A stretch of 61,873 bases of DNA from Prevotella merdae (GTDB lineage Bacteria; Bacteroidota; Bacteroidia; Bacteroidales; Bacteroidaceae), in NCBI RefSeq assembly GCF_900290275.1, contig NZ_LT985327.1, forward strand, positions 1 through 61,873, written 5' to 3'. A program made the translations under genes and the position numbers. Below, one piece after another: positions 1 to 55,814 of this stretch. Position 1 is the first letter of the stretch. Each line of letters begins with the position of its first letter. The notes beneath the pieces are model-generated. The model was not told the origin of the DNA. It worked only from the letters and a program-made list of their open reading frames with translations, and did not search any database.

Positions 1-125
1 GTTTGTCTTGGGCTTCCTTCAGATTTCATCTCGCGATGAACACCCTTGCCTTTGACTATGCAATTCCCGCTATTAGGGCTTGCTCGGGACTTTCACCCGT
101 TAGACAATGCTCATGCCGAGCGTAC
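1..125 (-). mobile_element. Group II intron, 5' end (copy 1, cut by the window edge)
   Basis: On the minus strand the sequence begins GTACGCTCGGC at position 125 and runs off the left edge. It is clearly related, roughly 85% by eye, to the 5' end of the second intron at 26875-27000, including the shared stretch around CTAACGGGTG and AAGTCCCGAG typical of domain I. The second copy is linked to reverse transcriptase and domain V remnants, which identifies this one by homology. The upstream exon at 126-170 is the terminator of the MFS gene. Differences spread along the stretch suggest two related introns rather than a recent duplicate. Confidence 0.75.
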
Positions 126-132
126 TAGATAA

Positions 133-174
133 AAAGAGAGTGTGCCATACTTTTGACACACTCTCTTTTTTTAT
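133..174 (-). terminator. Rho-independent terminator of the MFS gene
   Basis: Inverted repeat AAAGAGAGTGTG / CACACTCTCTTT with a short loop, directly after the stop codon of the MFS gene and followed on the minus strand by a T run. The group II intron starts a few bases past this hairpin. Confidence 0.85.
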
Positions 175-1445
175 TTTCTATATCCCCTAAGTCCATACCA
201 CAACAGCACAAACTCGCATACAAGAGCTATTGTCCACGTGAATTGCCATGAGCCAATCCAGTCGGCCAACATTCCCTGAAGCACTGGGAATACAGCTCCA
301 CCGAACACTCCCATCATAAACACTCCAGAGGCACGCGAGGTATATTCTCCAAGTCCATCAACGGCAAGAGTGAACACACAACTCCACATAACAGAGTGGA
401 AAAGACCTACAGCCGCCAAGAGCCAGAGGTTCTCGGTTAGCATAGCAGCAATCATGAGTGCAATTGCTCCAAGACTAACAGTTATGAGCATAGGACGCGG
501 CTTAACGTTTTTCATTGACGCCGACACCATACGTCCAATAAGGAAACCTCCCCAATAGATTGTGGCAAGCAATGCTGGCGACAAAGATGCACCACCAGAA
601 GCAAGTTCCATTGCGTGAAGGTTTATGTTGTTGCCGATGCTCACCTCCGTACCTACGTAGAAAAATATTGTTATAACTCCATATTTCAGATTGCGGAACG
701 ACCATACGCTTCTTGTGTTTACTGCAGAAGATGCAGAAGAGGTTGCATCTGACGATGAAGAGCGTATGCCCTCGATGTCGGGCAAGGCAAGTCGGCGCGT
801 GGTCAATGTGGTGACTACAATACAGATAGTCATGAGTATAAAAGGCAGGGTGAGTTGCGATGCTGTGACGCTATCGAGAGGAACTCCTGCGAACATAATG
901 CCTGTGACAAAGAGTGGGGCTATGGTTGTGCCAAACGAGTTGACGGCACATGTGAAATTCATCCTTTGCACCGCACTTGTACCTGGCAACGGATAGGCAG
1001 CGATATATGGATTGATGACCACCTGGAGCATGGCTGCAGCAGTTCCCATAAGGAACGAACCCATGAGAAACACGAAGTAGCCAAACGGCACGAAGTCGCC
1101 ATTGACAACAACACCTGCATCGCCAGCATACTCAGCACAAAAAGCAGAGGCTGTATAAAACACCAAGCCTTCGACCATGACTATCAGCGAGCGTATCAAC
1201 GTGCGCTTGTAGCCAATGAGATTGAGCATTCGTCCAGTGCGCGAACTGTTGAGCAGATAGCCAAGGAAGAAAGCGAAGGATATGAGTGTGGTCAATGAGT
1301 TGCGCATGGCTGTGGCTTCGGAGAGGAACGCTATCTTGAGCGGTCCTTGACACTGACCGTTGACTGTTGTAAGGAATCCTACAATAAAATATATAAATGT
1401 GAGCAGCAGGAATGGTCCTGCGGTCTTTAGGCTTAGGGTTTTCAT
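171..1445 (-). CDS. MFS transporter, FucP-like sugar permease family
   Basis: 424-residue major facilitator protein with about twelve hydrophobic segments. The N-terminal region (GFLTTVNG, then a GYKRTL loop after the second helix) resembles the fucose/glucose-galactose:H+ symporter branch. It probably imports a sugar or polyol across the inner membrane. It lies on the same strand as the mannitol-dehydrogenase-family gene and a LacI regulator, suggesting it imports the substrate of that enzyme. The 184-bp gap to the dehydrogenase is filled with inverted repeats. The substrate cannot be read from the sequence. Confidence 0.8.
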   Translation of the reverse strand: MKTLSLKTAGPFLLLTFIYFIVGFLTTVNGQCQGPLKIAFLSEATAMRNSLTTLISFAFFLGYLLNSSRTGRMLNLIGYKRTLIRSLIVMVEGLVFYTASAFCAEYAGDAGVVVNGDFVPFGYFVFLMGSFLMGTAAAMLQVVINPYIAAYPLPGTSAVQRMNFTCAVNSFGTTIAPLFVTGIMFAGVPLDSVTASQLTLPFILMTICIVVTTLTTRRLALPDIEGIRSSSSDATSSASSAVNTRSVWSFRNLKYGVITIFFYVGTEVSIGNNINLHAMELASGGASLSPALLATIYWGGFLIGRMVSASMKNVKPRPMLITVSLGAIALMIAAMLTENLWLLAAVGLFHSVMWSCVFTLAVDGLGEYTSRASGVFMMGVFGGAVFPVLQGMLADWIGSWQFTWTIALVCEFVLLWYGLRGYRK

Positions 1446-3072: not shown

Positions 3073-3129
3073 AATCTCTTTAAGTTATTAGTTATTATTA
3101 TTTTAGTTATTAATTGTTCTTTTCGCTTG

Positions 3130-3160
3130 CAAAGATATATGGCAAAAAGATTATGGCAAA
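3130..3160 (-). promoter_or_regulatory. Bacteroidota promoter for the dehydrogenase gene
   Basis: On the minus strand TTTG (3157-3160), 19 bp, then TATCTTTG (3130-3137), an exact match to the TTTG-N19-TAnnTTTG form. The implied start of transcription near 3124 leaves a leader of about 50 nt before the ATG at 3072. Confidence 0.8.
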
Positions 3161-3182
3161 GAATAATTTTAAGGTAAGTTTT

Positions 3183-3225
3183 GGAAACGTTTGCGGTAAC
3201 GTTCCCAAAATCTGCAAACGTTTTA
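3183..3225. promoter_or_regulatory. Triple LacI-family operator array, left side
   Basis: Three CG-centred 12-bp near-palindromes: GGAAACGTTTGC (3183-3194), GGTAACGTTCCC (3195-3206) and GCAAACGTTTTA (3214-3225). They are of the AAACGTTT type bound by LacI/PurR-family regulators. Centre spacings are 12 and 19 bp. The array sits about 60-100 bp upstream of the inferred dehydrogenase start site, an upstream position that fits activation or looping better than simple promoter blocking. Confidence 0.7.
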
Positions 3226-3272
3226 AATAGTAAGTTGTTATTGTGGGAGGTAGGCTCACATAGTCTAACCTC

Positions 3273-4617: not shown

Positions 4618-5967
4618 ATGAGCATCAACATCCAGAGAAATCAGAAGAAAAGAGTAGTAATCGTTGGTGGCGGACTTGGCGGACTGCGCCTTGCCGAAGA
4701 CCTATACGGCGTAGGCATGCAGGTAGTGCTTATCGACAAGAACAACTTTCACCAGTTTCCACCGCTTATCTATCAGATAGCGTCGGCAGGTATCGACCCA
4801 AGCAGCATTTCATTCCCCTTCCGTCAGATATTCCGCAAGCGCAAGGACTTCTATTTCCGTATGGCTGAAGCTCGTATGGTAGATACCGACAAAAAGATTC
4901 TACAAACTTCTATCGGAAAGATCGACTACGACTACCTTGTCTTGGCAGCCGGAGCTACAACCAACTTCTTTGGCAATAAGAACATAGAGGACTGGGCTAT
5001 TCCTATGAAGACTGTGCCCGAAGCTATGGGTCTGCGCAATGCCTTGCTATCAAACTTAGAGCGTGCATTAACTTGTGCAACAGAGGAAGAACGCCAAGAG
5101 CTTCTAAACGTCGTAATAGTTGGTGGTGGCGCTACTGGTGTAGAGATTGCAGGAGCCTTGTCAGAGATGAAACGCTACGTCATTCCATACGACTATCCCG
5201 ATATGGACTCGTCGTTGATGCACATTTATCTTATAGAGGCTGGCGACCGTCTGCTTGCCGGAATGTCGCAAGACTCGTCAAAGAAGGCTTACGACTTCCT
5301 CAAGAGTATGGGTGTGGACATCCAGTTCGGCAAGATGGTTACTGACTACCGCGACCATAAGGTCATTATGAAGGACGGCACAGAGATTCCTACACGTACA
5401 TTCCTTTGGGTGTCTGGTATTAGAGCCAATGCTATGCCGGGCATCGACGAGAGTCATTTGGGCCGTGGTTTCCGATTTAAAGTAGATCAATATAACCGTA
5501 TTCCAGGCTTGGAAGGAGTATTTGCCATTGGCGACCAGTGTCTGCAAACAACAGACAAGGCTTATCCTAATGGACATCCTCAGGTAGCTCAGGTAGCTAT
5601 CCAGCAGGCTAAGAACCTTGCCAAGAACCTCAAAAAGATTAACGAGGGTCAGGCCGAAAGCTCACTCACTGCCTTCAAGTACAAAAACCTCGGCTCTATG
5701 GCCACCATCGGACGCAACAAGGCGGTGGTTGAAATAGGCAAGTTGCGCAGTCAGGGCTTCTTTGCATGGATATTGTGGCTTGTCGTTCACCTGCGCTCTA
5801 TTCTCGGTGTTAAGAACAAGATGATGGTGCTGCTCAACTGGTTGTGGAAGTATGTTAGCTACAACGACTCTATACGTATGATTACATACGCCACAAAACC
5901 ACGTGAGGTGGTGGAGCGTATGGAACGCGAGCAGACCACACACCTTGGCGAGGACTTGATGGAATAA
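4618..5967 (+). CDS. ndh: Type II NADH dehydrogenase (NDH-2)
   Basis: 449-residue single-subunit NADH:quinone oxidoreductase acting on the inner face of the membrane without pumping protons. The FAD-binding Rossmann motif GGGLGG is at residues 17-22 and the NADH-binding motif GGGATGVE at 169-176. A second FAD-contact motif, GVFAIGDQ, is near residue 300. The C-terminal hydrophobic segment around FFAWILWLVVHL fits membrane attachment. It is divergent from lacI, and the operator array in its leader raises the possibility of sugar-linked control. Other NAD(P)/FAD oxidoreductases are less likely. Confidence 0.88.
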   Translation: MSINIQRNQKKRVVIVGGGLGGLRLAEDLYGVGMQVVLIDKNNFHQFPPLIYQIASAGIDPSSISFPFRQIFRKRKDFYFRMAEARMVDTDKKILQTSIGKIDYDYLVLAAGATTNFFGNKNIEDWAIPMKTVPEAMGLRNALLSNLERALTCATEEERQELLNVVIVGGGATGVEIAGALSEMKRYVIPYDYPDMDSSLMHIYLIEAGDRLLAGMSQDSSKKAYDFLKSMGVDIQFGKMVTDYRDHKVIMKDGTEIPTRTFLWVSGIRANAMPGIDESHLGRGFRFKVDQYNRIPGLEGVFAIGDQCLQTTDKAYPNGHPQVAQVAIQQAKNLAKNLKKINEGQAESSLTAFKYKNLGSMATIGRNKAVVEIGKLRSQGFFAWILWLVVHLRSILGVKNKMMVLLNWLWKYVSYNDSIRMITYATKPREVVERMEREQTTHLGEDLME

Positions 5968-6134
5968 AAATACAAAATAATATCAATAGGAGGGTATGGC
6001 ACATTTGTCATACCCTTCATGCTATTCAACAAACTACACCTTATAATATAAGTTAAAAATAATCTGCAAGATACACATTTGTGATATTTTGCGTAATTTT
6101 GCAAATTGATATATCACACATTTTTATATTTAGT

Positions 6135-8216
6135 ATGTTGGAAAATAGCACGAATACTCCAAAGAGAAAGAATCCGTTTTTTGAACCTTACAACACCCCA
6201 CACGATACAGTACCATTCGAAAGAATACGCCTCGAAGACTATGAAGAGGCTTTTTTTGAGGGCATACGCCGCGACGATGAGGAAATAGACAAAATCGTAA
6301 ACGACCCCGAGGAACCAACTTTCGAGAACACCATTGTGCGTGTTGACAACGAGAACGGCGAAAACTACTACGACTTGCTGTCAAGAGTGTCTACCGTGTT
6401 CTCGTGTATGATGAGCGCAGAAACGTGTGACGAACTCGACGCATTGGCGCAAAAGATGAGTCCGATACTCACCAAGCACGCCAACGACGTGAAACTAAAC
6501 CGTCGACTGTTTGAGCGCATAAAGCATGTTTACGAGCATCATCGCCCGCTTACACCCGAGGAACAGATGCTGCTCGACAACGCCTATGATGGTTTTGTGC
6601 GCTCGGGAGCACTGCTCGATGAGGAAGGCAAGGAACGTCTGCGCAAACTGACCGAGGAGGCAAGCATGCTGTCGCTGCAGTTCTCACAAAACCTGCTTAA
6701 GGAGAACAAGGCATTCACGCTGAACATAACCGATGAGGCTCAGCTCGACGGACTGCCCGAAACAGCACGCGAGGCTGCTCAGCTCGCCGCAAAAGAAGCA
6801 GGAAAGGAAGGCTGGCTCTTCACTCTCGATTATCCCAGCTTTTCGCCATTCATGACATATTCCACACAGCGTGAGCTAAGAAAACAGCTCTATATGGCTC
6901 GCAACACAGAGGGCACACACGACAATGCTGAGAACAACCTTGAGATTTGCAAGCGGCTTGTCAACCTGCGCCGCGAGATAGCACAGCTGCTCGGATATGC
7001 CACATATGCCGACTATGTGTTGGTGCATCGCATGGCATCGAATGCCGACAATGTGTATAAGTTGCTCAACGACCTAATCGATGCCTACAAGCCCACCGCC
7101 ATAGAGGAGGTGAAGGCTATAGAGCGCGAGGCAAAGCAGATTGAAGGCGACGACTTCCAGTTGGAGCCGTGGGACTTTGGCTACTACTCGCACAAGCTAC
7201 AGATGCGCGAGTTTAATCTCGATGCCGAGATGCTACGCCCCTACTTCGAACTGTCGAAGGTTATCGACGGCGTGTTTGGATTGGCAAACAAACTTTATGG
7301 AATCTCGTTCAAGGAGTCGAAGGAAATACAGGTGTATCATCCTGACGTGAAGGCTTATGAGGTGTTCGACAAGGATGGATCTTATCTTGCTGTGTTCTAT
7401 GCCGACTTCCACCCACGCAAGGGCAAGCAGGGTGGAGCGTGGATGACAGAATTCCAAGGACAGTGGATAGACCGCAAGGGCGTGAACGTGCGTCCGCATG
7501 TGAGCGTGGTGATGAATCTTACCAAGCCAACAGCCGAAAAACCAGCTCTGCTGACACTTGGCGAGGTGGAGACATTCCTCCATGAGTTTGGCCACTCATT
7601 GCACGGCATGTTTGCCAATACTCGATTCGAGAGTCTAAGTGGCACCAACGTGTGGTGGGACTTTGTTGAGTTGCCTTCGCAGTTTATGGAGAACTACTCG
7701 GTAGAGAAAGAGTTTCTGCGCACATTCGCCTTCCATTACCAGACAGGCGAGCCTATGCCGGACGAACTAATCGACCGCATTGTGCGTAGCCGCAACTTCA
7801 TGGCTGCCTATGCTTGTCTGCGCCAGGTGAGCTTCGGATTGCTCGACATGGCATACTACACCAAGAAGGAAGAATTCAAGGACGACATCATCCCATTTGA
7901 GAAAAAGGCTTGGGAGAAGGCTATGATAATGAAGCAACTGCCAAACACTTGCATGACAACACAGTTCTCGCATATCATGGCGGGCGGATATGCCGCTGGC
8001 TACTACAGCTACAAGTGGGCTGAGGTGCTTGATGCCGACGCTTTCAGCGTGTTCAAGAAGAATGGCATCTTCGACCAAGCTACGGCACAAAGCTTCCGCG
8101 ACAACATCCTATCAAAGGGTGGAACAGAGCACCCTATGACGCTGTATAAACGATTCCGTGGACAAGAGCCTACTATAGACGCATTGTTGGAACGCAACGG
8201 AATAAAAAGAAACTAA
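6135..8216 (+). CDS. dcp: M3 family oligopeptidase (peptidyl-dipeptidase Dcp-like)
   Basis: Zinc metallopeptidase that breaks down short peptides. The zinc motif HEFGH is at residues 483-487, with the third ligand glutamate near residue 512 in FVELPSQF. At 693 residues it has the usual M3A length. An upstream in-frame ATG at 6081 would add 18 hydrophobic residues, but the ATG at 6135 begins the family-like sequence and follows a TAATTTTG element at 6094-6101, so it is preferred. No convincing signal peptide is seen, suggesting a cytoplasmic enzyme. Oligopeptidase A versus Dcp cannot be settled by eye. Confidence 0.88.
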   Translation: MLENSTNTPKRKNPFFEPYNTPHDTVPFERIRLEDYEEAFFEGIRRDDEEIDKIVNDPEEPTFENTIVRVDNENGENYYDLLSRVSTVFSCMMSAETCDELDALAQKMSPILTKHANDVKLNRRLFERIKHVYEHHRPLTPEEQMLLDNAYDGFVRSGALLDEEGKERLRKLTEEASMLSLQFSQNLLKENKAFTLNITDEAQLDGLPETAREAAQLAAKEAGKEGWLFTLDYPSFSPFMTYSTQRELRKQLYMARNTEGTHDNAENNLEICKRLVNLRREIAQLLGYATYADYVLVHRMASNADNVYKLLNDLIDAYKPTAIEEVKAIEREAKQIEGDDFQLEPWDFGYYSHKLQMREFNLDAEMLRPYFELSKVIDGVFGLANKLYGISFKESKEIQVYHPDVKAYEVFDKDGSYLAVFYADFHPRKGKQGGAWMTEFQGQWIDRKGVNVRPHVSVVMNLTKPTAEKPALLTLGEVETFLHEFGHSLHGMFANTRFESLSGTNVWWDFVELPSQFMENYSVEKEFLRTFAFHYQTGEPMPDELIDRIVRSRNFMAAYACLRQVSFGLLDMAYYTKKEEFKDDIIPFEKKAWEKAMIMKQLPNTCMTTQFSHIMAGGYAAGYYSYKWAEVLDADAFSVFKKNGIFDQATAQSFRDNILSKGGTEHPMTLYKRFRGQEPTIDALLERNGIKRN

Positions 8217-18112: not shown

Positions 18113-18217
18113 ATTATAGATAACAATCGAGTAGGAGGAAAACGAAGCAGTTTTCTTCCTACTTTCGTTTTCCGACCTCTCACACCACCGTACGTGCGGT
18201 TCCGCATACGGCGGTTC

Positions 18218-19025
18218 CTATTTTGGATACCATTCGAGATACGCCTCCATTAAAGTAGCATACCCTGCGGAGCGCAGATTATCGTTATTTATCGCCCTCT
18301 TCAATACAGGACTATCAGCTATACGCCAATAGCCTTTGCGAGTATTACCCCATTCATATGCTTGGTATTCATTAATACCGCATCTAATGAGGTTTGCCAC
18401 TCTTGTCTTGACTTTCTTCCAAGCTTTCCATATACACATGCGTATTCTACGTCTTAACCATTCGTCTGTTTCAAGCAAGAGACGCTTCATATTAGCAAGG
18501 TGATAATAGCCTACCCACCCTCTTATGTATTCTTTCAGCTTTTGCTTTCTCTTGGCATATCCCCATCCGTTGCTGCGACTTGTCAGTTCTTTTAGTCGCG
18601 ACTTCATCTTGGCTTTGGACTTTGGATGTACCGTGAGTTAGCATTTGCCTTTCATCACATAAAAGGAGTAGCCGAGGTATTTTACTCCTCGCACATACGA
18701 CACTATAGTCTTCTCCTTGTTGACTTTGAGATATAGAGCATTCTCTATAAATTGGGTTATACTCTCCTTTACTCGCATTGCAACCCTTTTGGACTTGCAG
18801 AATATCATCGAGTCGTCGGCATAACGCACAAAGGGGAGTCCTCTGCGTTCGAGTTCTTTATCCAATTCGTTGAGCATTATATTACTCAACAATGGACTTA
18901 GAGGTCCGCCTTGAGGAGTTCCTTCCTCGCTCGCTTCAAACAAACCTTTGTTCATTACGTCACTTCGGAGATATTTGTGTATAAGACTGACCACTCTGCC
19001 GTCTTTTATCGTACGGCTGAGAATT
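18218..19025 (-). pseudogene. Group II intron reverse transcriptase/maturase, C-terminal part
   Basis: Encodes the RT palm with the active site RYADDSMIF and the TPQGGPLSPLLSN motif, then the maturase domain (GWGYAKRKQKLKEYIRGW) to the natural C-terminus at LEWYPK. An in-frame TAA after VMKGKC (18638-18640) breaks it. Reading through the stop gives LTVHPKSKAKMKSRL, so it is a single nonsense change. At the upstream end the intron match begins with ILSRTIKDGRVVSLIHK. No HNH endonuclease domain follows the maturase. Confidence 0.85.
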
Positions 19026-19190
19026 TGTTTAATTCTGGAAAACTTTCGTTAGTGCCTTATACAAAGGACTTTGGGAGAATTACCCATTTTTGAGGTAATG
19101 ACTTGGCAACTGTGCAATCTGCTGCGTTCTACCTTGAATTGCTTACAAGGAACTCTTAGTTTGTTGCAAAGATACGAATTTTACTTATAT

Positions 19191-19239
19191 ATAAAAAGCA
19201 CTGTACTATTTATTATGTCCCTTAGATAGTACAGCACTT
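19191..19239 (-). terminator. Terminator of the four-gene cassette
   Basis: On the minus strand CTGTACTAT / ATAGTACAG forms a 9-bp core stem extended by imperfect pairing, followed by CTTTTTATATATA. It is about 50 bp past the last cassette gene. Between it and the intron junction lies a TATCTTTG promoter-like element (19167-19174, minus) pointing to the intron remnant, with no gene of its own. Confidence 0.65.
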
Positions 19240-19285
19240 GAATATTTGTCTAATTTCTTTTGATATAGAAAAAATGTATTAAAGG

Positions 19286-19480
19286 CTATTCTTTGTGATA
19301 AGAAACCATATCTCCCTTATCATTTCGATACATCTCTATATAATCCAAACAACTTGGCTTTAATGCGCCATTAAAGTGGAAAACAAATGTTCTTCTTCCA
19401 TCATTTGATTCACAACGTAGAGTTGATTCATCTTGTTTTGTTACACGTCCTACAACAAGAGGATTGTATGGTGGTATCAT
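19286..19480 (-). CDS. Hypothetical protein, fourth gene of the cassette
   Basis: 64 residues, not recognised. Begins MIPPYNPLVVGRV and has a short beta-like stretch (RTFVFHFNGALKP). It follows the third gene by 3 bp on the same strand, so it is probably a real small coding gene of the operon. No signal peptide or membrane segment. Confidence 0.5.
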   Translation of the reverse strand: MIPPYNPLVVGRVTKQDESTLRCESNDGRRTFVFHFNGALKPSCLDYIEMYRNDKGDMVSYHKE

Positions 19481-19483
19481 AAA

Positions 19484-20095
19484 TTAAAACGTGCCCTTGC
19501 TAAATTTGTAGTAGATGTCTCGTTGGGTTGGACTATCTATAGTTTTTTCTCCATTTCTCCATAAACAGTTTCTTGGTGAACTAAAGTGATTATAATCTTG
19601 CCCTGAACCGATTTTATGTGCTCTTATAAAATAGCTCTTCACATAACTACCATAATCAGAACACATTTGAATATTCATTTTATAACCATTAATACCATAA
19701 TCCCGTTCTTCTACTCCATAGTGTCCTTCTCCATATTTTACCATGTATGAAAACACCTTATCAGCAACATTGAAGTTTCTTGATGGAATCTTATCAATAA
19801 GACCTTCCGAGAAGTAATCTAATTCAAAGTCAATCTGATAAGAACCTTTCAGATAAAGATATGCTGCAAGATAAATAGCTTCTGCTTCAAGGTCTTTTGT
19901 ATTAAGAGGCATGTGTTTTTTCAGGTCTGTTACACTTTCCTTTACATATTGTTCTATAGGGTCCATAGATGGAGCTTCTGATTGCAGAACTGACTTTATC
20001 GTAGATTCAGACTTACAATTGTTTACACTTGAAGATGATTGTGAACTCACATTTTTATCTTCCTTTTTACCGAATAAAAATTCAAAAAAATCCAT
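19484..20095 (-). CDS. Hypothetical protein, third gene of the cassette
   Basis: 203 residues, not recognised. A short amphipathic start (MDFFEFLFGKKEDK) is followed by a serine-rich linker to about residue 45, then a globular domain with several aromatic residues and GHYGVEERDYG. No catalytic motif is evident. It starts one base past the stop of the second gene and is followed 3 bp later by the fourth, so translation is tightly coupled. Confidence 0.6.
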   Translation of the reverse strand: MDFFEFLFGKKEDKNVSSQSSSSVNNCKSESTIKSVLQSEAPSMDPIEQYVKESVTDLKKHMPLNTKDLEAEAIYLAAYLYLKGSYQIDFELDYFSEGLIDKIPSRNFNVADKVFSYMVKYGEGHYGVEERDYGINGYKMNIQMCSDYGSYVKSYFIRAHKIGSGQDYNHFSSPRNCLWRNGEKTIDSPTQRDIYYKFSKGTF

Positions 20096-20096
20096 G

Positions 20097-21257
20097 TTAT
20101 TTGTATGATTTAAAGTTTAACACTCTATTTCTTGTTTCTTTGTAATTGTACCTACATTCATATTGTAATATCTTAAATAAAGATTCAATATTACGACTTG
20201 TTAATTTGCCATCCTCCGCACAGATTCCTGTATAAAACAACAAAGCTATTGATTTTGCCTGCTCGTGTTTTGCTGATACAATTTCATTATATGTTTTTTC
20301 TTCAATATCAACATATCCTCCCGTATCATTAGGTTTAATAGATGCGTGTTGATAATAGGTAAGTGATTTCATATTATACTTCCATCCCGAAGATATTGAT
20401 ATTTGGGTTGCTAATTCATTACAATAATGCGCAAAGTACATATCTGAAATGTACAACAAGTCAGGATTGATATTTATTGGAATTATATACCTTGCCATAG
20501 AATCCATAGCAATAGATGCCCTATTTACATAAGCTTCCTGTTGAAAGATTTCATCATTTGTTGTACAGGCTAATTTTGTCAAATATAGATAATCATATGA
20601 ATAAATCTTTCTATATAGTTCCATATGGTTTTTAGGGCACATCAATAATAATAATCTAAAAGTATTTGCTGCCCCAGCTAATCCATAATCACTATTCCAA
20701 TATCGATTCGGGAACATTGTAAGTTGATTTATACTTCGATAAAGATAATTTAGCCCTTCTTCGAACTTTTGCCCATACATATACATACCTGCTATATCAG
20801 CAAGTATATATGGATGCTCTGTATCTTTAAATTCAAATATGATAGAATTTAATACAAAAGTAGGAATTTCATATAATGCTAATGAAATTCCCCTTGTACG
20901 CCAAGGAGAATTTAAATCTTTGAATTTAGGCTTGTCATTTTGTGCATTTTGAACTTTGAGGACATAATTATCCACAAACGAATCATCTATGCACAAACTT
21001 CTATCAATCATAGTAATTTCAGACATTTCATAATTCTTACATTTATTATGTAGATACAGTCCCAACTCTTTAAGTAAAGATATGATATACTCATTGTGTA
21101 TTTTATTCACATAAAAATCAAACATCATAGGAAAGAGCCAATTGCCCTTTTTCTCTTGAAAACAAATGGGATGTTCATGTGCAAATTGACTGAACGATTT
21201 TGGGTCAGCAGACTCAATTTTCTCAAGGAGAGTTTTGATGTAATAATTATCTTCCAT
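20097..21257 (-). CDS. Hypothetical helical protein, second gene of the cassette
   Basis: 386 residues, not recognised. Mostly helical and AT-rich, with a stretch at about residues 150-240 (ADIAGMYMYGQKFEEGLNYL) that resembles a TPR-like helical repeat. No membrane segment or known catalytic motif. It begins 22 bp after the nuclease gene. A scaffold or substrate-recognition role is possible but only inferred from the helical pattern. Confidence 0.6.
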   Translation of the reverse strand: MEDNYYIKTLLEKIESADPKSFSQFAHEHPICFQEKKGNWLFPMMFDFYVNKIHNEYIISLLKELGLYLHNKCKNYEMSEITMIDRSLCIDDSFVDNYVLKVQNAQNDKPKFKDLNSPWRTRGISLALYEIPTFVLNSIIFEFKDTEHPYILADIAGMYMYGQKFEEGLNYLYRSINQLTMFPNRYWNSDYGLAGAANTFRLLLLMCPKNHMELYRKIYSYDYLYLTKLACTTNDEIFQQEAYVNRASIAMDSMARYIIPININPDLLYISDMYFAHYCNELATQISISSGWKYNMKSLTYYQHASIKPNDTGGYVDIEEKTYNEIVSAKHEQAKSIALLFYTGICAEDGKLTSRNIESLFKILQYECRYNYKETRNRVLNFKSYK

Positions 21258-21279
21258 ACAAAAAACTTAATTATCAATG

Positions 21280-24165
21280 TTATGATAGATTTTCTCCCTG
21301 TAATGTTATCAACCGCTTCTTAACAGTCCCGTTCTTACAGGATTTTACTATAGAAATTATGACTTCATCCATACGTGGCACTTCCAATTTTCTGTATTCA
21401 TTTGTATCATCACAGAAAACCACAAGATACATCTTTTCGATAATTATGTCATAATTTCTTTCGAGAATATAGCGATATAGGTTCTGTTGAATACAATAAT
21501 GCCAATATGGCGTATCCTCAATTTGATTGAGTTCACCTAACCCTTTCTCGCCATAGTTGTTTACCGCAATCGGTTTACCCCAAAAATCGACAATGCGATG
21601 ACTACGTTTCCAATCATATATGTCAAAAACATCTCCACGTTTATGTATCATATCTATTGTACCAGCAATTTTTAGTTCGTCATCATATATAGCCCATTCT
21701 GTTCTAAACGGTTTAAATTTGTGGTTTTCGAGAAACTCTATGAATTGCATATATTCAAGTTCAAGAGAAATTTGTTCTTCTATGTGAACATATTTTCCGT
21801 CATATTTGAAAGAGAATTCTTGTTGATATGGAAGTCCCTTATAATAGTTTTCTATTTGTTGGTGCATAAAAGTTCCGACATCACGTGAACACGCACCTTT
21901 TGAATCCCATTCTTCAAGAATCTGTCCTTGTGATATATTTCGTTGATTAGCTTTATATTCTGACCAATAGTATGAATCAAATGGCTTAAAGAAACAAGAT
22001 ATCACACTGCTGACAGGAATAAATTGTTCCTGTCCATCATATAGATAAATATGTTCTTGTGGATAGAATTGAATATGAACGTCTTTTTCGCAAAAAACAG
22101 GTTCTCCTATTTTATAGTTTACTTTTCTATTTGAAGAAAACACCAATGGTTTCATTCTCTTGGCACAAACCCTTTCTTTTTCCGTTTGTGTTATGTCTGC
22201 AATTTCAAGTTTCTCATTGTCAACAATACCAAATTCATGGTTCAAGTATTTCTCGCGAGTATTTTCACTTGCCATAACTTTGGCTTCGATTTCTGTCCAT
22301 CGTTCAATTTCCTTTGGAGTAGAACATGAGAGAAAATCGATTGGTAAAACCATAGAGGGTTGTATATAATGAAGAACTTGTGCTATAAAAGCCGCACATC
22401 CCTTAGGATTGGAAAAAACTTGATATTCAGTAAAACGAATAACAATCCATCCGATATTATTCAGAAGTGCATCACGAAAATCATCCCCACATCCTATATA
22501 ATGTATAGGTTTTCGTGTAAATGCAGCATATGGTTCGTCTATTTCAATGTCTATTCTTATAGATGGGTGCTTTTTGCATATAATCGCTATATCTGGTTCA
22601 AAAGGCCTGTTATCTTCTACAGGAAGTATATTGCAATCACCGAGTATAAGTAAATCACATCCCCTGATAGTATCTTGTAGATAATTTTGGAATTTAGCTT
22701 CACTGAACCCTCTTCTTGCTATAGCTTTTCTTCTGTATGGAAAAACAATACAGCCATCTTCAGGATATTTAGTTACTGGATATTTCCAGTTACTCTTATC
22801 TTGGACAACTGATGGCATCAAATAATCAACATATTGAACATCAAAATCATCAACCACTCCAACAGCATAATCACTTTCTATTTTTTTCTCTGTTTTGCAA
22901 ATGACATCTATCAATTCTTTATCTACGCTTTTAGACAAAGCAAAATCTTTAACCTTCTTGACTTTTTCTTTTGCCGTCTCAATATCAGCAGACTTTAATG
23001 CATTAGAAATAGAATTGATTTCATCTTTTATTTGTTTTTGTTGCTGCACTTCTATGTTCTTTTTATCAATGAGTTTTTGCATCTCTTCCCGAGAAAACTC
23101 TTTCATTAAAGAAATATAAACAATACAGGGCTTTTGATGCTTAAATTTCTGTATTACAGATTCGCATCTTTTTACAAACAAGTCTTGTGTTGTTACTCCA
23201 TCAATAATAACAACATAGTTTGAAGATAGTTTATCTATATGATGGAGAGCACATGATTGAAATCCAAGTACAGCCAAATCAAGAGTTAAAAACTGAACTT
23301 GAAGATTTTCATCGAATTCAGCTCCATATGCGATTACTTGCACAGGGACACCCAATGATTTTATAAAGTTACTAATCTCTATGTTGATATAAGAAGGGGT
23401 ATTTATTTTTCCCTCCTTATATTTATCTATATTAATGTTATTCTCTTGCGTCTGTTTAAAATGAGTGTAATCTAAATCGGTTGCAGTGCAAAAACTTGAA
23501 AAAAAGAATTGCCATATGCGATATTCTCCTTGTATGATATTTCCTTTATAGTCGGTTTTTTGAAAATTCATGTTATAAAAATAGCAACCAGAATGTGGCG
23601 TTGTAGATTTTTTGCTACGACATAACTTACTAAAAGCTATTTGTGCCTTTTCCCATTCTTCGGTACTTAAAAACTCTTTTTGCCGCCTATCGAAATCTAT
23701 TATTTCCGTAATATTACTTATTATTATTGATTTGTTTGCAGAAGGATGTTCTTTTTGCCAACAAGTAAGTCCATCTGAATAGTTGGCTTTAATCATATTA
23801 TATTCAGTTGATACCTGCTTTTCTCGTTGTATTCTTTCCAATTCGAGCTTTTCTCTCTTTTCCCATTCAACTTTAGGAAATGAGAGGAATTTATTTATAT
23901 CTTGTTTTGTAAGATTGTTTTCAGACTGGAATATTCGTAATTCTTTTCGAAAGAAAGAGTATGCATTAGGATATATATCTTTTTGATGCTTAAATTTCTT
24001 TATTAAACGCTTAGTTGATAAATTTGATATAAATATAAAAGCTATAAGAATGGCTATTAAAATTCCTATAATTATGCATACGACTTTAAAACCTTGAGTA
24101 AGTCCACAAGTTATAAGTGCTAGTAGGGCATATCCAATACAACCCCATTTTTTTTCTGAATCCAT
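21280..24165 (-). CDS. Membrane-anchored protein with two PD-(D/E)XK nuclease-like regions, first gene of the cassette
   Basis: 961 residues. Two membrane helices lie at about residues 8-48. The middle contains a part not recognised and a lysine-rich coiled stretch (about 350-410). At about 475-600 is a DUF559/Vsr-like region: PFEPDIAII, then IRIDIEIDEPYA, then an arginine and GWIVIRFTEYQV. The C-terminal third, about 725-950, carries a RecB/Cas4-like nuclease pattern: GTFMHQQIE (about 767), a glutamate in RTEWAIYD, AGTIDMI, DWKRS (about 851) and QQNLYRYILE (about 893). The second region appears complete; the first lacks an obvious catalytic lysine. Defence or plasmid maintenance are possible roles. 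Confidence 0.65.
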   Translation of the reverse strand: MDSEKKWGCIGYALLALITCGLTQGFKVVCIIIGILIAILIAFIFISNLSTKRLIKKFKHQKDIYPNAYSFFRKELRIFQSENNLTKQDINKFLSFPKVEWEKREKLELERIQREKQVSTEYNMIKANYSDGLTCWQKEHPSANKSIIISNITEIIDFDRRQKEFLSTEEWEKAQIAFSKLCRSKKSTTPHSGCYFYNMNFQKTDYKGNIIQGEYRIWQFFFSSFCTATDLDYTHFKQTQENNINIDKYKEGKINTPSYINIEISNFIKSLGVPVQVIAYGAEFDENLQVQFLTLDLAVLGFQSCALHHIDKLSSNYVVIIDGVTTQDLFVKRCESVIQKFKHQKPCIVYISLMKEFSREEMQKLIDKKNIEVQQQKQIKDEINSISNALKSADIETAKEKVKKVKDFALSKSVDKELIDVICKTEKKIESDYAVGVVDDFDVQYVDYLMPSVVQDKSNWKYPVTKYPEDGCIVFPYRRKAIARRGFSEAKFQNYLQDTIRGCDLLILGDCNILPVEDNRPFEPDIAIICKKHPSIRIDIEIDEPYAAFTRKPIHYIGCGDDFRDALLNNIGWIVIRFTEYQVFSNPKGCAAFIAQVLHYIQPSMVLPIDFLSCSTPKEIERWTEIEAKVMASENTREKYLNHEFGIVDNEKLEIADITQTEKERVCAKRMKPLVFSSNRKVNYKIGEPVFCEKDVHIQFYPQEHIYLYDGQEQFIPVSSVISCFFKPFDSYYWSEYKANQRNISQGQILEEWDSKGACSRDVGTFMHQQIENYYKGLPYQQEFSFKYDGKYVHIEEQISLELEYMQFIEFLENHKFKPFRTEWAIYDDELKIAGTIDMIHKRGDVFDIYDWKRSHRIVDFWGKPIAVNNYGEKGLGELNQIEDTPYWHYCIQQNLYRYILERNYDIIIEKMYLVVFCDDTNEYRKLEVPRMDEVIISIVKSCKNGTVKKRLITLQGENLS

Positions 24166-24235
24166 AATTCTTACTTATAAATATATAAAGCGTGAACTGC
24201 ACAGCCACGTCTTTACTTGGAGGTCGTAGGAAACC

Positions 24236-24304
24236 TTGCATACAGATGTAGTAATAGCAGCCCACGCTATAGCGTGAGAACCACTATGCCATCTGAGTAT
24301 GCAA
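24236..24304 (-). ncRNA. Structured 5' leader element of the cassette
   Basis: In the roughly 220-nt untranslated leader, TTGCATAC-tc-AGATG pairs with CATCTGTATGCAA (plus positions 24290-24304 and 24236-24248), a 13-bp stem with a 2-nt bulge. Inside is a perfect 14-bp palindrome, CACGCTATAGCGTG (24263-24276). Further toward the gene, CGTG and CACG flank an 11-nt segment. The complementary arms argue for a folded RNA, either a cis-regulator or a separate small RNA. No match to a named RNA family was recognised. Confidence 0.55.
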
Positions 24305-24395
24305 TTTGAAAATTTTCTACGTTTCCAAATACTTGATGCGCATAACGCTTCTTTCTTATCTAATATGTTTTGGAAAGAGTTACCTCAATCCGATA

Positions 24396-24430
24396 CAAAG
24401 GTAAGAAAAATCCGTGATCTGCCATTCAAA
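24396..24430 (-). promoter_or_regulatory. Promoter of the four-gene cassette
   Basis: TACCTTTG (24396-24403, minus) matches the -7 box. The nearest upstream TTTG is at 24427-24430, a spacing of 23 rather than 19, so the upstream box is weak. Transcription would start near 24389 and the leader would run to 24166. The promoter overlaps the relaxase terminator. Confidence 0.55.
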
Positions 24431-24446
24431 CATCACGGATTTTTTT
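24406..24446 (-). terminator. Terminator of the relaxase gene
   Basis: AAATCCGTGAT / ATCACGGATTT with a 13-nt loop and T runs on both sides, about 35 bp past the relaxase stop. Confidence 0.8.
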
Positions 24447-24479
24447 GATTTACAGTTTCATACTCCTATTCTGTCTTGG

Positions 24480-25621
24480 TTACGGTATTCCGATAGCTTC
24501 TCTAAACTCATTCATTTTCTTTCTGAACCAGTTCACGTGTGAAACCCCGTCTATCTTGAAATCGAATCTACCGTTTTCGTCCTGTCTGATGGAACAGACG
24601 GAGTGTCGGGTATCAAAACTTCGGTTAAATTCGGAAGAATAGAGTTCGCCTTTTATCCCGACCTCCTTGAACTCGCACAGTCTTCTGATTATTCCGTCAT
24701 TGAACCCCAATCGGTCACGCAGGAAGTTTATTACAGGCATCAGCTTCTCCACATACGGGAAATAGCGTCTGACAAAATCCGTAAACTCCGACAGCTTGCG
24801 GTGCTGTTGCTCGTAAGCGTTTCTTATCCCCTGTATCTGTTCGGCTTGTTGCCGTTCCCGTTGTCGGGCTTCGTCTTCAAGTTCAAGGATGCGGTCTTGC
24901 AAGTCCTCGTTCCTGCGTTCCAACGATTTCATTCTTCCACTTCCGAAAAGAGAACCCACACTGCTTGCAAGGGCGGTTGCCGTATCGGTGGCTGCGCTTT
25001 TGAGCTTGTCGGTGGGATTTCCGCTTTTACCTGTTTCAGTTCCTCCTGCGCCTCGGCTTTCTTCTCCTGTAACAGTCTGGTTTCGGTTTCAAGGGTTTCA
25101 TTTTTCTTTTTCAAGTCCCGATAACGGACGGAATTTGTTTTCTTGCGGTACTTGCGCTTACCGTCCGTCTGTTCTTTCTTGGCTTTGCGCCTTTCACCCG
25201 TCACGATAGGAACAACGGCTGCGTGGATGTGCGGAGTCTTCTCGTCCATGTGCAGATGGGCGGCAACCACATGGTCTTTGCCGAATGTGGCTTGCAGCCA
25301 TTGGATGCTGTCGTTGCACCATTCGTCGAGCTTTCCTTTTTCCTGTATGTTCATCATATCCTCGTGCGTACCCGACAAAACCACCCGGACAACGCGGACT
25401 TGGTCGTGCGTGATTTTCCGTCTGATGCCTGCCGTGTTCAGCCTGTGGGCAATCGCTTCATCCCTGCCATGAACGCCATCAGGGTATTCGACAAGCACCA
25501 TGTTCAGATGTGTTCTTGTCGGGTCTGCGTTTTTAGGCATTATCTTTCTCTCTATATGGTCGGACTGCGTGGTGTCCGATGTACCCTTTGCCTTCTTAAT
25601 GTCCAATGAAAAATATCCCAT
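24480..25621 (-). pseudogene. MobV family plasmid relaxase, frameshifted and internally shortened
   Basis: Relaxase of the Mob/Pre type that nicks oriT to start conjugal mobilization. The first frame (25621 to about 25020) has the N-terminus MGYFSLDIKKAKG and the three-histidine metal motif HLHMDEKTPHIHAAV near residue 120. Near 25010-25020 the frame shifts: the second frame continues with NPTDKLKSAATDTATALASS into a coiled-coil C-terminus (LERRNEDLQ) ending at 24480. Compared with remembered Bacteroides relatives such as the pBI143 mobilization protein, about 45 residues appear to be missing between TNSVR and YRDLKKK. It is probably inactive, though an N-terminal fragment could be made. Confidence 0.8.
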
Positions 25622-25765
25622 ATCATTACTGTTTTTGCGGTTATCGTTATGTTTCTTCTCTCTGCCTGTGGCATCGGCTCACAGGGTTTATTATGCAAAT
25701 GAACCATTGCAGCACTCGGCATAATCCAGACGAGTTTGGCTTCTGCTCTCGTTTGCACAGGGTTT

Positions 25766-25838
25766 CCAAAGGGATTTCCCTTTGGCTCGATAGGGTGTTT
25801 TTAGCGTTACGGAGTAATGCGTGAAGAAAACGCCCTAT
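25766..25838. other. Candidate origin of transfer (oriT)
   Basis: Lies about 145-220 bp upstream of the relaxase start, the usual MobV arrangement. It contains a perfect 9-bp inverted repeat, CCAAAGGGA-TT-TCCCTTTGG (25766-25785). Next is a longer hairpin with arms ATAGGGTGTTTT (25790-25801) and AAAACGCCCTAT (25827-25838) around GCGTTAC and GTAATGC. The nick site cannot be placed. The rest of 25622-25985 has no recognisable gene. Confidence 0.55.
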
Positions 25839-25985
25839 AGAGCTATGGTATTTCTGTCTAAATACCTTGGGAGAGCGGACGTGCATATTACAGATGAAAT
25901 CCCCCTTTCTTTTTCGGTGGCTGCATCATCCGCCTTGCGGATTGGACTTGCATTTCTCCCGTTTTTCGAGGTTATTCCAGAGATT

Positions 25986-26577
25986 TTCTATGAGTTTGCT
26001 ATGGCTCACGGTATCGAAGAAGCGTTCAAGGTCAAGGTCTACTACATATATGTAGCCTTCGTTGATTATCCTTTGCGCTCCTCGTAGTGCGTCATGGCAT
26101 CCTCTTCTCGGACGGAAGCCGTAGCTCGTCTTAGAGAATTGGTTCTCATAGATGGGAGTCAGTACTTGGTTGATGCACCAAACGGTCTACAACTGTAGGT
26201 ATTCCCAACAGGCGCATCTTGCCATTGTCCTTAGGTATTTCTACCTTTTTCACTGGGTTCGGACGGTAAGAACCGTCCATCAAGGAACGGATGAGTTCAT
26301 CCTTATTGGTCAAGAGCCATGTGAGCAGTTGCTCACACGACATATTGTCGATACCACCACAGCCTTTGTTTCTCATCACTGCCTTGTAGACTCGGCTGAG
26401 ATTTGAAGGACTGAGGATTTGCTCGAAAAGGTGTTCCTTATCGAATGGTACTTCCACGATGTTGTCTTCACACATCCACATGAAGGTCTGCACTCCCCCA
26501 TACCATTCAGTTTCCGACCTATCTCTTTGGGGGCAGCCATTAACTTGGGATAATGTTTTCTGCATTCTTTCCTTCAT
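25986..26577 (-). pseudogene. Group II intron reverse transcriptase, N-terminal part
   Basis: Starts MKERMQKTLSQVNG and covers the RT0 to RT3 region (GIPTVVDRLVHQ, YGFRPRRGCHDAL, YVVDLDLERFFDTVSHSKLIE). The frame changes near 26170: the expected AISQVLTPIYE follows VHQ only after a net loss of about 8 nt. After KLIE the intron match stops where the nested insertion begins; the other half resumes at 19024. A pseudogene by two lesions in this half alone. Confidence 0.85.
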
Positions 26578-27000
26578 AAGGTATGTTTCAATTACTATCG
26601 CTTGATTGTTAGGTTCTGCCCTTCGTGCAACGTTATCGAGTATTGCACTACTATGGCGTCTGCTGACTTCTCACGGCAAGCTTTACTCCGCTTCTTTCGT
26701 AAGAACAACTATTTGAAGCGTCCGTGAGACCTCCTCGGATAAGAACATTGTCTTTCCATCTTATACCTACTTCATTTACACCAACCGTTCCGAATAGCTA
26801 TAGGGCTTTGGTCTGGGTAGCAACCTTACCCACGGTCATATGCCTTGTATGAAGTTTCTGTACGTTAGGTCAGATGTTTGCCGCCGGCTTCTTTCAGGTT
26901 CCAACTCACGATGGACACCCTTGCCCTTGGCTATGTAATTCCCGCTATTAGGGCTTACTCGGGACTTGCACCCGTTAGACAATGCTCGTGCCGAGCATAC

Positions 27001-53757: not shown

Positions 53758-55182
53758 ATGAAAAGATTAGGTAAATATATACTCGCCGCTACAATGACCT
53801 CGGTCTGCGGCAACATGATGGCACAAGGACTCAACTCGGGATACTTTACAGACGACTATAAGTTCCGCCATACAATGAACCCGGCATTTGAGAACGAGCA
53901 GAACTATGTGTCGCTGCCAGCTCTCGGCAACTTGAATGTACGCACTCAAGGCAATTTTGGATTGGGCGATGTGATATTTGACAATCCACGATATGGTCTT
54001 GACAGCGACAAGAACAAGACTACATTCATGAACCCATACATCTCTACAAGCGAGGCTCTTAAGGGTTTCAACAAGGGCGACAACTGCATCAACGCTGATG
54101 TGGACATCACATTGCTGTCGGCTGGATTCAAGGCTTTTGGCGGATACAATACTATTTCTATCGATGCCCGAACCAATATCGGCATGTCGCTACCTTACGA
54201 GCTGTTTGAGTTTGCCAAGAACACCGGCAACAAGACATACGAGATGAACGACATCAATGTGCACACTCAGTCGTTTGTACAGCTTGCTTTCGGCCACTCA
54301 CGCAACATAGGCGACAAGCTTAGAGTAGGCGCTAAGGTTAAGTTGCTGTTCGGTGCCGCACGCGGCGACTTGCAAATAACCAACCTACGTGCCGACCTTA
54401 CTGGCGAGAACAAGTGGACTATGTCGGGCAAGGCTCTTGCCAACGTGTCGATGAAGGGATTTGCATATCAGGAAAAGGAAAAAGAATACAAGCAAGACAA
54501 TAAGGGCACATACCGCTATGTAAACGATGTTGATGTCGATGGTGCCGGAGTTGGCGGATTTGGTATGGCTTTCGACCTTGGTGCAGTATACAAGATTAAC
54601 GACGACTGGACCGTAAGCGCCGCTCTTATCGACCTTGGCTATATCAACTGGAGCAACAATATGCAGGCTGTAAACAAGCAGCAGACTTTCGAGTTTGACG
54701 GTTTCCACGACATAGCTGTAAAGAAGAACGACAACAACGGCAACCAGAAACCTAACTCGTTTGCAAGTCAGGGCGACAGCTATTCTGACCAGCTTGCTAA
54801 CTTTGCCAACCTATCTGACGACGGCGACAAAGGCAGCCGCTCAACTGGTATAGGTGCTACACTTAACCTGGGTGGCGAGTATACTTTCCCGTTGTACCGC
54901 AAGCTGCACTTCGGTTTCCTTAGCTCTACACGCTTCAATGGCAAGTATACTTGGACTGAGGGCCGCCTTAGCGCCAACGTGGCTCCGCTGAAATGGATTG
55001 ACGGTGGCGTGAACTTTGCCGTTAACAGCTTTACTGCAAGCTGCGGATGGATTCTGAACATCCACCCAAAGGGTATGAATATCTTCGTAGGTATGGACCA
55101 TATCGTGGGCAAGACAAGCAAGGAATTTATTCCGCTTAGCTCTAACGCAAGCGTGAACCTCGGCTTTAACGTTGCTTTCTAA
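53758..55182 (+). CDS. DUF5723 family outer-membrane protein
   Basis: 474 residues with a signal peptide (ending NMMAQ). The conserved opening GYFTDDYKFRHTMNPAFENE is typical of this family. Alternating hydrophobic strands and a final aromatic residue (NLGFNVAF) point to an outer-membrane beta-barrel. Function unknown; likely works with the lipoprotein encoded just before. Confidence 0.8.
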   Translation: MKRLGKYILAATMTSVCGNMMAQGLNSGYFTDDYKFRHTMNPAFENEQNYVSLPALGNLNVRTQGNFGLGDVIFDNPRYGLDSDKNKTTFMNPYISTSEALKGFNKGDNCINADVDITLLSAGFKAFGGYNTISIDARTNIGMSLPYELFEFAKNTGNKTYEMNDINVHTQSFVQLAFGHSRNIGDKLRVGAKVKLLFGAARGDLQITNLRADLTGENKWTMSGKALANVSMKGFAYQEKEKEYKQDNKGTYRYVNDVDVDGAGVGGFGMAFDLGAVYKINDDWTVSAALIDLGYINWSNNMQAVNKQQTFEFDGFHDIAVKKNDNNGNQKPNSFASQGDSYSDQLANFANLSDDGDKGSRSTGIGATLNLGGEYTFPLYRKLHFGFLSSTRFNGKYTWTEGRLSANVAPLKWIDGGVNFAVNSFTASCGWILNIHPKGMNIFVGMDHIVGKTSKEFIPLSSNASVNLGFNVAF

Positions 55183-55217
55183 CAGAATTCTCGTTAAAGG
55201 ATTTTTTATGGCTTAAG

Positions 55218-55303
55218 CAATGAGGCAAAGCTCGGATTTGCCTCATTGTATTTGCAAAAACAAAATTATACCGTTCGTTCAGGGAGCTGCCCTGGACGAA
55301 CGG
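55218..55303 (+). terminator. Two hairpins downstream of the DUF5723 gene
   Basis: CAATGAGGCAAA / TTTGCCTCATTG (55218-55248) and CCGTTCGTTCAGGG / CCCTGGACGAACGG (55271-55303, one G-T pair). The first, about 35 bp past the stop, is probably a terminator though its T run is weak. The second may be structural. No gene is seen between here and 55557. Confidence 0.6.
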
Positions 55304-55392
55304 ATATTATAACCAATATGCCCTGAAAGGCTGTATATTCCATGAATTCGAACATTTTTATTCCATATATTCAAGCAATATTCAACGGCACA

Positions 55393-55494
55393 AAGTAAAT
55401 TATATTAAATTGGCAAGTAAATTATATTAAATTGGCAAGTAAATTATATTAAATTGGCAAGTAAATTATATTAAATTGGCAAGTAAATTATATT
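55393..55494. repeat. 22-bp tandem repeat array upstream of the helicase-associated-domain gene
   Basis: Four exact units of AAGTAAATTATATTAAATTG plus GC, followed by a partial fifth ending at about 55494. No spacers. It is 60 bp upstream of the small ORF, where repeat number could change promoter spacing. Confidence 0.92.
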
Positions 55495-55556
55495 GCTTTT
55501 TAAAAGCGAATAATCTTACAAATCGACATCATCCAATTATATTTACAACAATCATT

Positions 55557-55772
55557 ATGACAAAAAGAGAAGAGAATTGGCTCAACAGATACGAAGCCTT
55601 GAAAAACTATATTGAAGAGCACAAACAACTGCCAGACAAGAAGAAGGTGGAGAATCGAGGCTTGCTTAACTGGTGGAAATATAATAAGAAATGTATGAAA
55701 CAAGGAACCCTTGACGACGAGAGAGTGAGGATGCTGACCGAACTTAGCAACATGCGAAACATCAAGCAATAA
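55557..55772 (+). CDS. Small helicase-associated-domain protein
   Basis: 71 residues. WLNRYEALKNYIEEHKQLPDK and LLNWWKYNKKCMKQGTL match the helicase-associated (HA) domain pattern, here as a single unit without a helicase. Such domains bind nucleic acid in larger proteins. The ATG at 55557 is chosen because upstream codons lie in the tandem repeat region. It could be a stand-alone accessory factor or a remnant. Confidence 0.65.
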   Translation: MTKREENWLNRYEALKNYIEEHKQLPDKKKVENRGLLNWWKYNKKCMKQGTLDDERVRMLTELSNMRNIKQ

Positions 55773-55814
55773 AATCTTGCTATATAAAAAACAGAACACT
55801 TAAGTCAGACTAAA

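Follow-up and report, generated by a model that had tools for sequence, protein, structure and literature searches.

A conserved structured leader ahead of exchangeable cargo on predicted NBU-like elements of Bacteroidales, and a candidate two-nuclease immune operon behind it in Prevotella merdae

The mobile elements closest to the locus described here are the NBU-type elements of Bacteroides, one of which, NBU2, carries lincomycin-resistance cargo. With respect to its RNA component, the put and EAR RNAs are comparable antiterminating leaders. For the Bacteroidota, two reports mention long or structured 5' UTRs, in B. thetaiotaomicron (PMC7366714) and in F. psychrophilum, where some of them have no Rfam match (PMC9723704), which makes an undescribed leader family in this phylum plausible. 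Within the open-licence PMC literature, as far as its texts are accessible, we found no description of the leader reported below; subscription papers lie outside this coverage.

We analyzed a 61,873-nucleotide stretch of Prevotella merdae DNA (contig NZ_LT985327.1, positions 1 to 61,873; hereafter the window) in which a first-pass annotation had pointed out a four-gene, AT-rich cassette headed by a membrane-anchored protein with two nuclease-like regions. The observation was partly confirmed and its interpretation partly supported. The explanation that we favor, and consider on balance probable, combines an NBU-like cargo slot, a cis-acting RNA leader and a defence-type operon. The cassette would form the cargo-bearing end of an NBU-like integrative mobilizable element, in which a backbone of integrase, helicase-primase, toprim primase and MobV would be followed by a fixed slot composed of promoter, leader and exchangeable cargo.

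All features of the cassette lie on the reverse strand. The unit begins with a Bacteroidota-type -7 promoter box of sequence TACCTTTG (24396..24403, read from 24403 to 24396), exactly where the annotation had placed a -7 element. A 5' hairpin predicted by RNA folding (24372..24391), the sequence of which differs among copies, lies close to the presumed transcript start and is followed by the structured leader core (24188..24352), which is supported by covariance model R1 and by covariation and has no Rfam match. Downstream are ORF1 (21280..24165, 961 aa), ORF2 (20097..21257, 386 aa), a 203-aa first part of ORF3 with interrupted frame (19484..20095) and a 64-aa remainder, initially counted as "ORF4" (19286..19480). 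The claimed terminator (19191..19239) is real: a hairpin at 19239-19196 is followed by a T run, and its fold of -15.6 kcal/mol (z -3.0) was equalled by 1/200 shuffles. The genes are as tightly spaced as described (gaps of 1-22 nt), but they number three and not four. The two parts of ORF3 match positions 1-187 and 189-253 of a single ORF3 family profile, built from those of 97 homologues that were at least 200 aa long, and they form one 269-aa ORF in the related locus L005; the cassette thus consists of three genes, the third of which is interrupted here. The stated difference in base composition was also found, with a GC content of 0.320 over the ORFs versus 0.450 outside the insert. Elsewhere in the window, GC also dips at 55001-56000 and 59001-61000 (0.35-0.38).

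The proposal that the unit rides on a mobilizable insertion is borne out by a match to the NCBIfam MobV family (E 2.2e-46) and by element homology at 19030-25959 to L005 (contig IMGVR_UViG_2873675759_000001, the same locus as L009, L188 and L189). The insert (19030..25959, reverse strand) reads as an NBU-like integrative mobilizable element in truncated form, comprising a MobV remnant, the leader and the cargo. By blastn, L005 is 99.6% identical to the window over 19030-25124 and 98.8% identical over 25123-25959, and the window is missing ~133 nt of mobV that are present in L005, so that MobV is split over two frames. The remnant (24480..25621, reverse strand) accordingly appears as two ORFs, the first of which gives the MobV match, and the window copy of the element ends inside toprim. 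The order in L005 is a tyrosine-recombinase-like integrase, a small HTH-like protein, helicase-primase, toprim primase, MobV, leader and ORF1-3, with a glycosyltransferase-like and a dihydroorotase-like gene in the flank past ORF3; toprim and Mob were named by tblastn, the other genes by inspection and from annotated relatives. Integrase, primase/toprim and Mob are joined in one unit in L005, whereas the window holds only the mob remnant and the cargo. On sequence grounds, the carrier is a predicted NBU-like integrative mobilizable element, and its mobility is likewise a prediction. Rfam group II intron models (RF02001, RF01998, RF00029) match on both sides of the insert, giving an intron with approximate ends at 18126..26915 (reverse strand), and of the two reverse transcriptase halves flanking the insert one ends with ...SKLIENL... 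and the other begins with ILSRTIKDG...; the insert is thus placed within the reverse-transcriptase ORF of this intron. We note that this ORF is also out of frame in the part before the insertion point.

When the whole cassette was compared with plasmids by megablast, the leader region alone was matched, at 79-85% identity, in four records from Phocaeicola, Bacteroides, Parabacteroides and Prevotella that carry different genes downstream. The first-pass annotation had recorded a long leader. A leader is indeed present, but it is more than a long 5' UTR, being a conserved structured RNA of ~165 nt that the annotation overlooked. R1 scores the window copy at 169.9 bits (E 1.2e-37), this copy being itself one of the 78 sequences in the model. 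These 78 were selected for diversity from 115 cores whose 3' end could be recognised; a further 10 pattern matches had no such end, and a slightly looser pattern returned 132 loci. RNAalifold on the 78 distinct cores gave 42 pairs, 14 of them with double-sided changes. Over 40 pairs and 78 sequences, 97.1% of cells pair compared with 88.7% after shuffling, and pairing falls to 34-42% when one partner is slid by 1-3 columns. Cells changed on both sides number 302 versus 95.8 shuffled, and the covariation score is 0.270 versus 0.123; like the pairing of 97.1%, these values were reached by 0/500 shuffles. Such cells count sequences, not events, and pairs that carry at least one double-sided change are barely more numerous than in shuffles (14 versus 12.2, reached by 30/500). 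A-C cells (31 versus 144 expected) are depleted far more than G-U cells (366 versus 472 expected), which indicates that the mRNA-sense strand is the strand that folds. Comparison of the leader with Rfam 15 was negative for the window copy, for 5 main-family loci and for 15 weaker-relative loci. We regard it as very probable that the leader is an RNA.

A 3' pseudoknot, which was kept out of the leader model, joins the last 8 nt ahead of the outer stem's closing strand to sequence further downstream but before the start codon; by inspection, this partner frequently falls in a small hairpin loop. In the main family, 57/114 distinct copies reached a score of at least 15, as opposed to 17% with downstream sequence taken from other loci and 7% with shuffled sequence, and only around one copy in two shows the pseudoknot clearly. 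Among 20 weak relatives (11 from named Bacteroidales genomes and 9 from the phylum sample, with one degenerate copy, in L169, excluded) a score of 15 was found in 15/20, with 13 at 21-32 nt downstream, compared with 16% for other loci's sequence and 5.7% for shuffled sequence. In the window copy the partner is absent at that place, and ORF1 begins 22 nt past the core. With ORF3 interrupted and the leader lacking this partner, the operon is probably degraded in the window genome. The whole cassette could even be a decaying remnant without function, since mobV is also partly deleted and the element truncated; against this, ORF1 and ORF2 are complete and the segment shares 99.6% identity with an intact copy, and we leave this reading a substantial but minority possibility.

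Two simpler devices were considered for the leader. A terminator switch at the outer stem was rejected as a general mechanism because the alternative hairpin is found only in some copies (score 7 in 39/100 versus 15% shuffled). An ATG at about +10 of the core is conserved, and in 100/101 distinct cores its reading frame closes at codon 5 (67) or codon 9 (33). Stops at codon 5, however, occur about as often as independent letters would give (67 versus 64.3), and the ATG is kept in 2/10 weaker relatives; a leader peptide is thus not supported as a general feature. As a separate observation, the leader in five loci (L013, L123, L127, L129 and L139) is followed by GAACC... and further on by TGATACC, a motif that may mark a further insertion or an alternative 3' form.

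The position of the leader relative to promoter and gene is highly regular. The motif TAnnTTTG occurs 40-75 nt before the core, with a median position of -53, in 112/120 distinct upstream stretches, the window included (shuffled mean 3.1). A sense ORF of at least 60 codons starts no more than 150 nt after the leader in 104/114 loci, compared with 12/114 in a mirror control, and the distance from leader to start codon has a median of 53 nt (IQR 44-57). The leader thus sits in the 5' UTR of the transcript predicted from these signals.

Upstream, a Mob gene ends 80-160 nt before the leader in 37/120 loci (38/131 in all). Two queries were used for this count, the MobV of pBUN1, which is nearest to 23 of the 38 Mob genes, and the relaxase of locus L003, which is nearest to 15; by these, 83/120 loci have no adjoining Mob. 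Cargo is exchanged between matching backbones: in L005 and L008 one element occupies one and the same chromosomal position, with 93.3% identity over 6.2 kb of backbone, but their similarity ends at leader position +164 and is followed by unrelated cargo and then by a 98%-identical flank. A shared upstream backbone occurs in 142 locus pairs; in 128 of these the homology breaks off at +120..240, and in 12 it runs on past +400. The adjoining mob genes and the break in cargo similarity at the leader end would fit a DNA element, acting either as single-stranded DNA in transfer replication (a single-strand origin or ssDNA promoter) or as an attC-like site for cargo recombination. Yet locus pairs without a shared backbone show the same stop (4413/4639), the pattern that conserved leaders and non-conserved cargo would give, so that the break marks the end of conservation and by itself does not prove a recombination site. 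The fixed orientation and spacing to the start codon, the promoter box upstream and the pseudoknot within the 5' UTR also argue against a DNA element, as does the sense-strand G-U pattern, with which top-strand ssDNA is still compatible. We consider a DNA function very unlikely.

The genes behind the leader are diverse. After removal of near-duplicates and of one protein longer than 1500 aa, which left 81 of 104 first cargo proteins, BLASTP grouped the 81 into 52 clusters of up to 11 proteins. By Pfam and PADLOC, the cargo contains matches to DarT, trypsin-like proteases, MBOAT, a TOTE-system domain, beta-lactamase, an aminoglycoside adenylyltransferase family member, HamA and several 'PDC' candidate families, each family having 1-3 members among the matches listed (the first 25 of 55 and 35 families). 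Matches to RT-Protease_XI in the cargo may be explained by the trypsin-like proteases. Because putative lipoproteins, resistance genes and other genes are included, the cargo is not defence-specific. In pBUN1 (L011), for example, the leader (5084-5249) lies after mobV and directly before blaMUN-1 (5301-6206). We also noted that in L131 the gene behind the leader is nucleotidyltransferase-like and probably accounts for the Aminoglyc_resit match; it brings to mind linA, a cargo gene of NBU2. L169 contains two leader copies 2.7 kb apart (3074-3230 and 5763-5930), of which the first has degenerate ends and, by inspection, toxin-antitoxin-like genes downstream.

A shared leader before so many unrelated genes suggests a common control switch for traded genes. 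We think it quite likely that the leader controls expression in cis, as predicted from its position and fold. It would work as an RNA in the 5' UTR and would be a portable regulator of any gene placed downstream, gating transcription or translation by switching its fold under the influence of a general cellular signal or factor. The leader could instead be a constitutive expression or insulation module, that is, a promoter joined to a stabilising, Rho-resistant or antiterminating 5' UTR that senses nothing. The unrelated cargo (52 clusters among 81 proteins) speaks against a metabolite-specific switch and so accords with such a module, as do the promoter box in 112/120 stretches, the 5' hairpin and the rejection of the terminator switch as a general mechanism. 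On the other hand, loops that hardly vary, a long composite fold and a pseudoknot ahead of the start codon go beyond what a stabiliser would require, and we regard a purely constitutive module as somewhat unlikely.

In a pattern scan of species-representative genomes, at least 119 stretches contained the leader. Among the matches listed, 78/80 titles name what we take to be members of the Bacteroidales; the other two (L044 and L090) are Staphylococcus and Roseburia MAGs with isolates named NALB, perhaps mislabelled or mis-binned Bacteroidales. R1 was detected in 12/41 sampled genomes from the order of B. xylanisolvens XB1A (G001), with up to 14 matches per genome, and in 12/296 sampled genomes of the phylum; G001, picked for carrying the leader, is in both samples, and strict filters lose weak matches. 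It was also detected in 8/39 genomes of a second order (two at 134-138 bits) and in 2/39 of a third, centre genomes counted. Of the nine loci from the phylum sample (L177-L185), those of G028, G041, G281 and G269 lie outside the order of G001. The samples taken from the orders of G028 and G041 almost coincide and that of G269 is separate, and neither overlaps the genomes listed for the order of G001; from these non-overlapping sets we infer, among the genomes listed, relatives of the leader in at least two further orders of Bacteroidota. All 16 genomes selected for the leader had 2-15 matches each, some of which are antisense echoes of the hairpin.

A broader idea is that elements of the Bacteroidota have an integron-like cargo slot in which a phylum-wide RNA holds new genes under a single general signal, for instance infection, translation stress or arrival in a new host. 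This idea is speculative and we rate it as rather unlikely, but if true, a cargo-independent RNA switch would make it safe to trade genes as different as a nuclease effector, a DarT-like toxin, a protease and a resistance enzyme. A large RNA common to many mobile elements of a dominant gut phylum, located before defence-like, toxin, protease and antibiotic-resistance genes, would be a common control point for switching on traded genes, and it raises the testable question of how incoming genes escape harming a new host or falling silent in it.

In the window the cargo is the ORF1-3 operon. ORF1 had been credited with two N-terminal membrane helices. Its N-terminus is indeed hydrophobic and the structure model has helices at residues 9-22 and 25-63, but hydropathy shows a single stretch, all 19-residue windows starting at 13-37 exceeding 1.6; one and two helices are therefore indistinguishable by hydropathy, and two separate helices are plausible. 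The next region (23095..23598) is tentatively assigned a ComF/PRTase-like fold, a weak call. The middle region (22357..22716), taken as DUF559/Vsr-like at first, remains a candidate for such a domain: it has a PD...DxExD core and a tentatively predicted 3hrl-like fold, and its DUF559 Pfam match of 16.3 bits stays below the cut-off of 20.6. The C-terminal region (21295..22038, like the others on the reverse strand) matches the fold of MGME1 in the predicted structure and is of the PD-(D/E)XK RecB/Cas4/MGME1-like type. The annotation had made its reading depend on a nuclease fold in the large protein, and the model predicts such a fold; the full RecB/Cas4-like nuclease pattern that it had reported corresponds to an MGME1/Cas4-like domain with conserved motifs. 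In the alignment of homologues the nuclease motif columns are invariant or almost invariant. Among the 109 listed homologues of at least 640 aa, PD..DxExD is present in 108, GxxxH in 102, an AGTID-type motif in 105 and a DWK-type motif in 90; the QxxxY pattern is too loose for counting. We take the C-terminal motifs to be the PD-(D/E)XK RecB/Cas4/MGME1-like catalytic set. As a side observation, proteins from cyanobacterial plasmids (matches H11-H30) mostly resemble the DUF559-like region of ORF1 (residues ~450-680), and 24/39 records among the cyanobacterial plasmid matches are typed conjugative.

The two-nuclease module of ORF1 is elsewhere fused to a retron-type RT, MBL, LRR or PRTase. The protein-database match P0072 joins the module to a retron-type RT and matches PADLOC RT-Protease_XI with E 1.1e-99; it is possibly an undescribed type of RT-effector fusion. 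The PRTase fusion P0087 matches ShosT (E 2e-11) and, unlike ORF1, belongs with the ShosT/PsyrT matches. In the cassette itself, no RVT domain was found in ORF1-4, the RT pieces outside it being those of the group II intron, and PADLOC 2.0.0 returned no family for any of the four ORFs at E <= 10.

The remaining ORFs gave Pfam, NCBIfam and PHROG matches at chance level (ORF2-4). ORF2, with 156 homologues, is predicted to be all-helical (pLDDT 86.5, pTM 0.87), and its model had no significant structural match. Many of the 97 ORF3 homologues are ~240-280 aa long and others ~400-430 aa. As to whether the genes occur together elsewhere, a check that the annotation had proposed, all three are present, among the loci compared, only in L005, but this locus is 99.6% identical to the copy in the window and does not count as an independent co-occurrence. 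In L126, ORF2 and ORF3 lie behind the same leader and ORF1 is absent, and seven loci (L190-L196) have ORF1-type modules or parts of them with ORF2 and ORF3 undetected in the stretches compared. An ORF2 relative was found in 1/393 genomes sampled from the order of G001, and ORF1-type modules were found in 2/299 genomes sampled from the family of L126's genome. The cassette is rare among the genomes sampled, and obligate co-occurrence of ORF1-3 is unsupported, the trio being confined, in these loci, to two copies that are almost the same.

A membrane protein that combines an endonuclease-like with an exonuclease-like domain, as ORF1 is predicted to do, could destroy DNA entering at the membrane. 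Anchored there, ORF1 would use the Vsr/DUF559-like domain to nick or cut invading DNA and the MGME1/Cas4-like exonuclease to degrade the exposed strand, and ORF2, predicted to be all-helical, and ORF3 would sense or restrain it. We think it likely that the ORF1-3 operon serves as an immune effector. A membrane nuclease carried on an integrative mobilizable element, with a possible PRTase domain as in the ShosT-matching P0087, might alternatively serve not in phage defence but in plasmid or element competition, or belong to a toxin-antitoxin-like addiction module by which the element is maintained in the population. No antitoxin-like gene was recognised in the cassette, however, and retron-type immunity is suggested by the presence of the module in a fusion with an RT, so we hold a competition or addiction role to be unlikely. 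As a part of both a membrane protein and a retron-type RT fusion, the two-nuclease module is a candidate effector of more than one immune system.

Among the described systems close to the operon are the retron and RT-fused effectors (PADLOC RT-Protease_XI and RT-TIR_XII), to which P0072 links it through the shared two-nuclease module. Unlike a retron, the cassette has no RT gene, and ORF1 itself lacks an RT and has hydrophobic helices and another domain at its N-terminus. In comparison with MGME1/Cas4/RecB-like nucleases, ORF1 adds a Vsr/DUF559-like nuclease domain within a single membrane protein. The ShosTA/PsyrTA systems are approached by P0087, through its PRTase toxin match, and not by ORF1.

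The carrier resembles the NBU-type elements of Bacteroides in that L005 has integrase, helicase-primase, toprim primase and MobV with cargo at the mob end; it differs from them in the truncation of the window copy and, as far as the literature covered goes, in the conserved leader before the cargo. Flavo-1 and the other Bacteroidetes motifs of Weinberg 2010 are structured RNA motifs from the same phylum (PMC2864571). Those with Rfam numbers are set apart from the leader by the lack of any Rfam match at the leaders scanned; for Bacteroides-2 and GUCCY-hairpin the table of that paper lists none, and the comparison covers only the numbered motifs. It is plausible that the leader family is undescribed. 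Like riboswitches, attenuators and the put and EAR antiterminators, the leader is a structured 5' UTR between promoter and start codon with covariation and a pseudoknot. In contrast to known cis-regulatory leaders, it has no Rfam 15 match at the loci scanned, precedes functionally incoherent cargo and is located on mobile elements. With integron cassettes the elements share a fixed expression slot and exchangeable cargo; judged by position alone, they differ in that the folded element stands 5' of the gene, after the promoter, and not 3' of each gene.
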